Assembly (NCBI GenBank): GCA_001789645.1
Contig: MGAG01000010.1
Span: forward strand, 1-64,000
Direction of reading: 5' to 3'
Source of the DNA: Candidatus Roizmanbacteria bacterium RIFCSPLOWO2_01_FULL_37_12
Lineage (GTDB): Bacteria; Patescibacteriota; Microgenomatia; UBA1406; GWC2-37-13
DNA length: 64,000 nt
Shown here: piece by piece, positions 2,547 through 5,125 of the stretch
Layout: every line of letters begins with the position of its first letter
Numbering within the stretch: position 1 is the first letter of the stretch
Made by a program: the position numbers and the translations under genes
Notes under the pieces: generated by a model
The model's database searches: none
Seen by the model: the letters and a program-made list of their open reading frames with translations, nothing else
Told to the model about the DNA's origin: nothing

Positions 2547-2659
2547 ATTTAGATAGATTCTGTCATGATTTTTTTACCCATAAGTGCTCGAACCAGCGGC
2601 AGGCTGGAAAAATTCTGCGCGCTTATGGGGGCCCTTAAAATCATGCCACCTATCTAAAT
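2547..2659. other. Structured element S1 (multi-tier hairpin with conserved loops)
   Basis: Nested complementary arms: ATTTAGATAG (2547-2556) with CTATCTAAAT (2650-2659); CATGATTTT (2564-2572) with AAAATCATG (2637-2645); CCCATAAG (2577-2584) with CTTATGGG (2622-2629); apical CCAGC (2593-2597) with GCTGG (2603-2607). Loop sequences AGATTCTGTCA, GTGCTCGA and CTGCGCGC are identical in element S2 at 5013-5111 in the opposite orientation, whereas the stems differ but still pair. The pair brackets the two GT4 genes. It could be a structured RNA or a single-stranded DNA hairpin; no known family was recognised. Confidence 0.7.
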
Positions 2660-3787
2660 TTAATTTCTAGTTTTCTTTTTTTCTAACTCTATAACTTCAT
2701 AACAAAAATCCGCATACTGCTTGGCTATATTGTTCCAACCGTATTGCTTTGCAAACGACCTGCAATGCTTTTTCTTTTCCATTCTTAACTCTCTATCCGT
2801 TGCCATCTTTTCAATCGCCTCTGCCAGCTCTTTCGGATCTGCCGACTTTACCTTGATCGCAACCGTCTCAGGCACCCACGACATTCCCGGGACATCGGCA
2901 CAGATTACCGGTTTCTCAAGTACGGTAAACTCCAGGGGGACAAGCGGAAAATCCTCAAATCTGGAGGGATACATCCCAAACATACTATTGAGCATCAGGT
3001 CTTCCCTTTTTTTCCCGTCTACCCTGCCGACAAACTTAACAATATGTCCTATATTATAATTTTTTATCAAATTTATCAACTGCATTTCTTCAACTTTAGG
3101 GCCGTTACCGGCTATTATTATTTTAACCGATAATTTTTTAGCTGCCAATAACTTACAAGCCTCTAGTAATTTATCAAGTCCTTTTTGCACAATATCGATC
3201 CTACCGATAAAAAATCCGTAATTGCCCTCTTTTCCCTTTAAATTAAACCATTCCTCGGTAATTCCGTTGGGAATAATTCTGGCGTACACTTTGGGATTTA
3301 AGGACTGCATTTTTCTTTTTGTATTTTTGGAATAAGCCAGGAAGTATTTATAGAATTTTGCTCCCAACGCCTCAAACCAGTGAAAGGGTATTTTGTACTT
3401 TCTGGCAAACTCCTTAGCTTCAAACATCGTCGGCATTCCGATTACCGGAATTTTTGTAAATAACGGCGAAAAACAGGTTGAGATCGGAGCTGTAAAACAT
3501 TCAATAATTGCGTCTGCCTTTAATTTACGGACTGCAATCGGCAAAACAAAGAAAAATACCAGATTGTTTAACTTCATATTAGAAGATCCCAGTCCGATAT
3601 GTTGATAAAAAACTCCTTTATTAAAGCCGTCATTGGATCCGGGGAAGCGCGAACAAATGACTGTTACTTTATGCCCTAACCTAACCAAACGTGTGGCAAC
3701 CTCCTGTGTTGCACGGGCCTGGCCTCCCGCCAACAGGAAGTTATTCATGTCATCCAAATCCAGAAATACAATGTGTAATTTTTTCAT
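2660..3787 (-). CDS. GT4-family glycosyltransferase
   Basis: A 375-residue GT-B fold retaining glycosyltransferase. The N-terminal domain begins IVFLDLDDMN with the glycine-rich AGGQARATQE loop; the C-terminal donor domain begins GFFIGRIDIVQKGLD and contains IAGNGP and the region PSRFEDFPLVPLEF, where the family normally has EGFG...E. It transfers a sugar from a nucleotide donor, probably to a lipid-linked glycan at the inner membrane face. It overlaps the preceding gene by 4 bases, so the two are translationally coupled. Clear paralogue of that gene (shared IVFLD.DD start, ATPIST-like CFTAPIST block). Confidence 0.88.
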   Translation of the reverse strand: MKKLHIVFLDLDDMNNFLLAGGQARATQEVATRLVRLGHKVTVICSRFPGSNDGFNKGVFYQHIGLGSSNMKLNNLVFFFVLPIAVRKLKADAIIECFTAPISTCFSPLFTKIPVIGMPTMFEAKEFARKYKIPFHWFEALGAKFYKYFLAYSKNTKRKMQSLNPKVYARIIPNGITEEWFNLKGKEGNYGFFIGRIDIVQKGLDKLLEACKLLAAKKLSVKIIIAGNGPKVEEMQLINLIKNYNIGHIVKFVGRVDGKKREDLMLNSMFGMYPSRFEDFPLVPLEFTVLEKPVICADVPGMSWVPETVAIKVKSADPKELAEAIEKMATDRELRMEKKKHCRSFAKQYGWNNIAKQYADFCYEVIELEKKKTRN

Positions 3788-4974
3788 ATGTTGATCAAGC
3801 TTAAAAACAGCTTAAGGGCTTTTCTGCCGATAAAATTAAAATAATTATTATAGTTTTCAGCACGATTCATGTTGCTGTTATTGATGTAGTCGACATGATA
3901 AAAAAACTTTTCAAATTTTTCGGCCACATCATACCAACTGTAATTTTTGGCAAGATTCCTAGCCTCATGACTCATTTGCGAATTTAATTCCGCATTCGTT
4001 GCTTTAATCATCAGGTTTGCAAATTCATTAATATCAAATTTGCTTGCTCTCATTACCGCTTCATCGCTAATCCAGGCCAATCCGGGAATATCAAAGGCAA
4101 CCAAGGGGACTCCCGCGGCCAGAGCTTCCAAAGCAAAAATTGAAAATCCTTCGTGTCTCGACGGAATAACTGCAAATAAGGCTCGGCTAAGTAATTCTTC
4201 CTTTTGCTTCCCGAACTTTGGACCTGCGACTTTGACATACTTTTCCAGTTTCATTTTTATAACCGTTTGTTTTATTTTATTTTCATCTGGGCCGCGGCCG
4301 GCTATTACCAGCGGATAGCCGATCTTTTTTGCTACTTTTGCAAACGCTTCCAGAAGTAGATCCAAACCTTTTTGACCGATATCATATCTGCCGATGAAAA
4401 GTATATGCTTTGCCGTTTTTCTTTTTAATTGAAAATAGGCATCTTCGATTCCTTCGGGAACTATCGCGCAGGTTATATCGGGATTCAGCTTTCTCATTTT
4501 TTCTTCTAGAAAAAAGGAGAAAGGAAGGAAATATTTATACAGCCTGCAACCCAATTTTTCAATTATGGTGAACGGAAGATGATATAGCTTGCTGAACCGA
4601 TCGGCTTCAAAAGAAGTTGGCCTCGCCACAACGGGAATTTTAGTCCAAAGTGGTGAAAAAAGAGTGGAAATAGGAGCCGTAAAACATTCTAGAATTATAT
4701 CCGCTTTTAACTGACTTATATAAAATGGTACGGTTAAAATATACATCGCGTTATTGAATTTAATGTTATTGCTGCCGACTGAAATGTGTTTATATTCAAT
4801 TCCGGCCTCAATTCTATCTTTATATCCGGGATATTTTCCTGACAAGACGGTTACCGAATGACCCTTTTTAACCAATCGCTTCCCGACTTCATAGGTAGAC
4901 TTCGCCTGCCCTGCTCCCAAAAGCGGATTTCGTATATCGTCAAAATCTAGAAAAACAATCTGTAATTTTTTCAT
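3784..4974 (-). CDS. GT4-family glycosyltransferase (paralogue of its neighbour)
   Basis: A 396-residue GT-B glycosyltransferase. It has the AGQAKSTYEV loop, the shared block ECFTAPISTLFSPLWTK, the donor-domain start ILFIGRYDIGQKGLD, VIAGRGPDE and the catalytic region PSRHEGFSIFALEALA, where both glutamates of the EX7E motif are kept. That motif is intact here but altered in the neighbour, so the two may use different donors. The last four bases overlap the start of the next gene. The pair is bracketed by the inverted structured elements at 2547-2659 and 5013-5111. Confidence 0.9.
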   Translation of the reverse strand: MKKLQIVFLDFDDIRNPLLGAGQAKSTYEVGKRLVKKGHSVTVLSGKYPGYKDRIEAGIEYKHISVGSNNIKFNNAMYILTVPFYISQLKADIILECFTAPISTLFSPLWTKIPVVARPTSFEADRFSKLYHLPFTIIEKLGCRLYKYFLPFSFFLEEKMRKLNPDITCAIVPEGIEDAYFQLKRKTAKHILFIGRYDIGQKGLDLLLEAFAKVAKKIGYPLVIAGRGPDENKIKQTVIKMKLEKYVKVAGPKFGKQKEELLSRALFAVIPSRHEGFSIFALEALAAGVPLVAFDIPGLAWISDEAVMRASKFDINEFANLMIKATNAELNSQMSHEARNLAKNYSWYDVAEKFEKFFYHVDYINNSNMNRAENYNNYFNFIGRKALKLFLSLINI

Positions 4975-5012
4975 AGACTAAATAATTTCTTCTACAAATA
5001 AAATAAAAGGAA

Positions 5013-5111
5013 CAGATGGCAAAGCTGGAAGGGTCTCCCAACAGCGCGCAGATCTGGCGATATTCGCCGCCAGTCGAGCACTGGTGGGAGGGAAAGCTTT
5101 GACAGAATCTG
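5013..5111. other. Structured element S2 (inverted relative of S1)
   Basis: Arms CAGAT (5013-5017) with ATCTG (5107-5111); AAAGCT (5021-5026) with AGCTTT (5095-5100); CTCCCAACAG (5035-5044) with CTGGTGGGAG (5081-5090); apical CTGGC (5054-5058) with GCCAG (5069-5073). The internal-loop sequences GCGCGCAGA and TCGAGCA and the 3' run TGACAGAATCT equal those in S1 read on the other strand, while the stem bases differ and remain complementary. It lies between the stop of the giant glycosyltransferase gene and the start of the next GT4 gene. Confidence 0.7.
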
Positions 5112-5125
5112 GGGAAAAAAGCATA

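Follow-up and report, generated by a model that had tools for sequence, protein, structure and literature searches.

To our knowledge, palindromic elements that reside in frame within protein genes are documented mainly in Rickettsia. The Rickettsia palindromic elements (RPEs) are hairpin repeats of approximately 150 bp, often lying in frame within metabolic genes (PMC10969869), with CGTC at one end and no dedicated transposase (PMC3733652). REPs are 20–40 bp long, have a fixed GTAG end and are adjoined by RAYT genes (PMC3733652). Here, we analyzed a 64,000-nucleotide stretch of DNA (the window) containing two structured elements, E1 and E2, which are probably copies of a palindromic mobile element that is dispersed and non-autonomous and measures approximately 115 bp. 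By analogy with the RPEs, the element is best read as a putative new family of mobile palindromic repeats that form part of protein-coding sequence, in a lineage of CPR type.

E1 (2547–2662, minus strand) and E2 (5003–5118, plus strand) are a single folded element in opposite orientations, as the original prediction proposed, and both outfold shuffled sequences (z = −3.3 to −6.0). E1 matches the covariance model described below with 122 bits (E = 6.6e-29; fold z = −5.2) and E2 with 80.8 bits (E = 3.1e-18), and the exact core pattern GCGCAGA..TCGAGC has 2 matches in the window versus 0 expected. Read from the outside in, the sense strand comprises the outer stem P1, the loop GG/ACAGA, P2, the loop AAGGG/GGGAATGAA, P3, the loop GCGCGCAGA/TCGAGCA and the apical stem P4, which occurs as several subtypes among the copies. 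In E1, P1 is a 10 bp stem that pairs 2547–2556 with 2650–2659 (3′ arm first; direct reading and fold, and covarying as helix 1), P2 pairs 2564–2572 with 2637–2645 and P3 pairs 2577–2584 with 2622–2629 (both from fold and covariation); the exact pattern match places the conserved inner loop GCGCAGA..TCGAGC and P4 at 2586–2620. In E2, P1 is formed by CAGAT/ATCTG alone (5013–5017 with 5107–5111), the short-P1 form GGAACAG..CTGG, and P2 pairs 5020–5026 with 5095–5101 (fold and covariation), with the inner loop and a second apical subtype of P4 at 5046–5079 (exact pattern match). The two are different subtypes, with long versus short P1 and unlike apical stems. P1 was missing from the earlier description of the pair; the compensated stem changes it reported between E1 and E2 are real. 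The sense strand matches that of the flanking genes in E1 (minus) and opposes it in E2, and the pair surrounds, as noted earlier, two paralogous GT4 genes (43% mutual identity). Elsewhere in the window, a palindromic stretch, GGCTTGGGGTCCCCTACGGGGTGAAGCCGAAGC, adjoins E1 at 2466–2530 and is possibly a further repeat, and a REP-like double hairpin (GTCATTCCCTCGAAAGAGGGAATCC..) lies at 1358–1412 between the DegT and epimerase genes, its first hairpin having 12 exact-pattern copies in the genome.

Searching with the exact core pattern yielded 17 copies in the genome, from which a 115-position covariance model was built; the model then returned 22 strong copies in the same genome together with related variants. 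Further copies were indeed present in relatives, 37 of 96 of which (own genome counted) carry the element according to the model search, with up to 26 copies in 0.8 Mb in the richest carrier, G032. When the phylum was sampled evenly, the element was present in 6 of 192 genomes, 2 of them outside the class. The genomes measure 0.6–1.8 Mb, a range fitting CPR bacteria. The view that the element belongs to no described family held against Rfam 15, which gave no gathering-level match and no element-wide match at E ≤ 10, and no comparable palindromic family was found for CPR bacteria in the open-access papers searched. Pattern scans of wider genome contigs and viral sequences left, after filtering, only chance matches, mostly in GC-rich DNA (a stricter viral scan gave 23 raw matches), and phage records contained no match. 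The orientations of flanking genes show no bias (19 '--', 16 '++', 9 '-+' and 5 '+-'). An integron-like array on contig C8, suggested by seven same-strand matches, was set aside: several of these are weak variants, and L046, L051 and L053 are intragenic.

Copies are also found within protein genes. Among 99 distinct copies, 32 lie within open reading frames of at least 200 aa with no stop across the element, a count of frames open by length, with Pfam domains confirming the genes for those tested. The insert is hosted by asnB, tgt, acsA, tyrS, tsaD, DNA ligase, miaA and dus: asparagine synthetase carries it at the same loop in two genera and acetyl-CoA synthetase has two insert sites, the other hosts being Tgt, TyrS, TsaD, an ATP-dependent DNA ligase, MiaA and a dihydrouridine synthase. 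The copies lie on the same strand as the frame in 19 cases and on the opposite strand in 13. In relatives, the orthologues either lack the insert or carry another palindromic repeat in that loop; the L058 versus L052 methyltransferase and the second of the tgt sites are examples. An in-frame insert of fixed length was considered and discarded, as core length modulo 3 within the frames is mixed (15/9/8) and therefore uninformative. Judged from these reading frames, the element is inserted in frame in many housekeeping proteins of the lineage. The outer motif GTGTC..GACAGAATCT recurs in a second type of element, whose interior is different (CTCTCCGAG..CTCGCAGGAGAG); this type occurs at L048:1501-1613, L049:42-154, L051:1501-1612, L052:1501-1613 and L053:1501-1651, two of these copies lying inside acsA and tyrS.

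Empty sites, for which the original prediction had suggested looking in relatives, were found. Three well-aligned orthologous sites (L045, L037 and L043) lack the element, with neither P1 arm present, and two further sites (L036 and L035) are unoccupied. At L045 the ancestral overlapping-gene junction is intact in a paralogue within the genome itself as well as in G003 and G004, whereas the occupied site has gained the core, both P1 arms and a short AT-rich sequence. As both arms are missing from the empty sites, the element inserts as a unit, P1 included. Overlaps of 0–12 nt were seen at these diverged sites, with no target duplication consistent among those examined. P1 as a pre-existing target hairpin (a terminator) is contradicted by the absence of both arms at the three well-aligned sites, and a long inverted flank duplication ending in P1 was rejected for want of excess similarity past 14 nt (p = 0.19; L038, L051 and L053 alone stand out).

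Copies with near-identical interiors within one genome nevertheless have unrelated outer stems of 8–14 bp, always paired. Recent copies that share the interior but not P1 include two in tgt of G005 and about twenty in G032, and some P1 types, TTTAGTCAG and AAAGTAG among them, recur in different copies and species. Either the interiors of old copies may have been homogenized, leaving P1 behind, or P1 may have formed at insertion. One tentative and rather doubtful proposal is that P1 is made anew at each insertion by a folded single strand that transposes, one arm templating the other (snap-back synthesis); we know of no mobile element that moves in this way. These ever-changing paired stems provide a test of how inverted repeats arise and stay paired.

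Other repeats were encountered during the same comparisons. The intergenic site of L025, followed across G001:C3 25518-25573, G002:C31, G003:C2 and G005:C20 (L116-L119), has no insert in one species, whereas two species have an AT-rich repeat there and the fourth has a GTCATCCTGAGC repeat; the site is an insertion hot spot common to unrelated repeats. A longer subtype with an AT-rich apical region (approximately 137–178 nt) is present in G001–G003 (L413:1341-1477, L415, L416, L420, L421, L423 and L425). A separate hairpin family, GAAGATACCAATTTTTTGCGACT..GGTATCGAG (L446, L447 and L449 near 1500; L400, L401, L403 and L406 in G032), stands alone or forms an outer shell with an E1/E2-type element concentric within it, and both families have the GCGCAG/GAGCA inner loop.

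The stems covary strongly. Among the 17 own copies, pairing holds in 91% of cells and double changes affect 20 of the 31 pairs. The covariation score is 0.465, a value attained by none of 500 shuffles; shuffled alignments score 0.184 and slid ones at most 0.116. The score for 53 further copies (0.592 versus 0.193 shuffled) leans toward structure because their alignment was fitted to the model. Orthologous copies of two species, L030 and that in G001, differ by compensated changes. Such covariation and the constant loops are what a multi-copy structured RNA, whether a small RNA or a cis-regulator maintained through selection on its transcript, would display, and the conserved G.A and A.G mismatches, by which the sense strand is recognized as the folded strand, likewise mark one strand. 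Selection on RNA predicts an excess of G-T over A-C mismatches in all stems. Across the 99 copies, a clear excess is confined to P3 (22 G-T versus 6 A-C), whereas P1 (4 versus 10) and P2 (5 versus 2) pooled give 9 G-T versus 12 A-C. The absence of an outer-stem excess, together with the random orientation to genes and the copies inside reading frames on either strand, therefore favors a DNA-level palindrome as likelier than a functional RNA. With its patchy presence across genomes also at odds with an RNA, that alternative is improbable. The original claim of selection on a folded strand is only partly borne out: the stems covary, but the few G-T pairs and the replacement of whole stems between near-identical copies are also compatible with templated arm-to-arm copying of DNA. 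The stems warn that covariation by itself is no proof of functional RNA.

How the DNA might move leads to a REP-type alternative, in which a RAYT (a Y1 tyrosine transposase) cuts mismatched single-stranded hairpins. Recognition of the folded single strand would account for the conserved internal loops, and Y1_Tnp genes are available, with seven in the own genome and some in 71 of 96 relatives. Their association with the element is weak (31 of 37 carriers versus 40 of 59 non-carriers, p = 0.098). Against this, the model search of approximately 3 kb around each of the seven genes found no copy within about 1.5 kb, six carrier genomes have no detected Y1_Tnp and most copies lack a fixed GTAG end, so that RAYT mobilization appears unlikely, if slightly less so than a structured RNA. 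Least probable by far is the original suggestion that E1 and E2 delimit a mobile cassette. The inverted pair does enclose exactly two paralogous genes, but the remaining copies occur singly and dispersed, in any orientation, with unrelated neighbors or, in many cases, within genes; since E1 and E2 also differ in P1 length and apical stem, the cassette reading was dropped.

We therefore return to the mobile palindromic DNA reading. The element has many copies, a patchy distribution and random orientation, inserts cleanly as a unit and resides in frame. Its sense strand forms a single long hairpin, made of P1 and three more stems with conserved purine-rich internal loops, and some host or mobile enzyme would recognize this folded single strand. 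It would spread as selfish DNA, with copies presumably tolerated in intergenic DNA or in surface loops of proteins, and its stems may stay paired through structure-based recognition or templated arm-to-arm copying rather than RNA function. Some evidence counts against this reading: no transposase is tied to the element, the sites examined show no consistent target duplication, and the P3 G-T excess is as under RNA selection. Mobile DNA that adds peptide segments to housekeeping proteins would be a recurring route, now met in a reduced-genome, probably CPR, lineage.

Compared with known systems, ERIC/MITE-type repeats share the short, non-autonomous, intergenic character and hairpin potential, but here there is no constant terminal inverted repeat (P1 is paired and differs in sequence in most copies, although some types recur), and the overlaps of 0–12 nt at the diverged empty sites give no consistent target duplication. 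The REP/RAYT system is similarly palindromic, multi-copy and sometimes intragenic, and these genomes encode Y1 proteins; it differs in repeat length (20–40 bp versus approximately 115 bp), in its GTAG tag (here the base before AG varies, with GTAG in some copies only) and in the flanking of RAYT genes, which the copies here do not share (seven Y1_Tnp genes, ~1.5 kb). The RPEs are the closest known kind, a likeness of features and description: hairpin repeats of 100–150 bp, both intergenic and in frame in unrelated reading frames, with no known dedicated transposase (PMC10969869, PMC3733652). The size and copy number correspond (a 115-position model and 22 strong own copies), as does the in-frame residence (32 of 99 copies, Pfam confirming conserved enzymes). 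The CGTC end is not shared, the ends here being mostly AG..CT with CCGTC in some G032 copies only, and the family described here belongs to another lineage, in which the stems vary freely with compensation and the internal loops are fixed.
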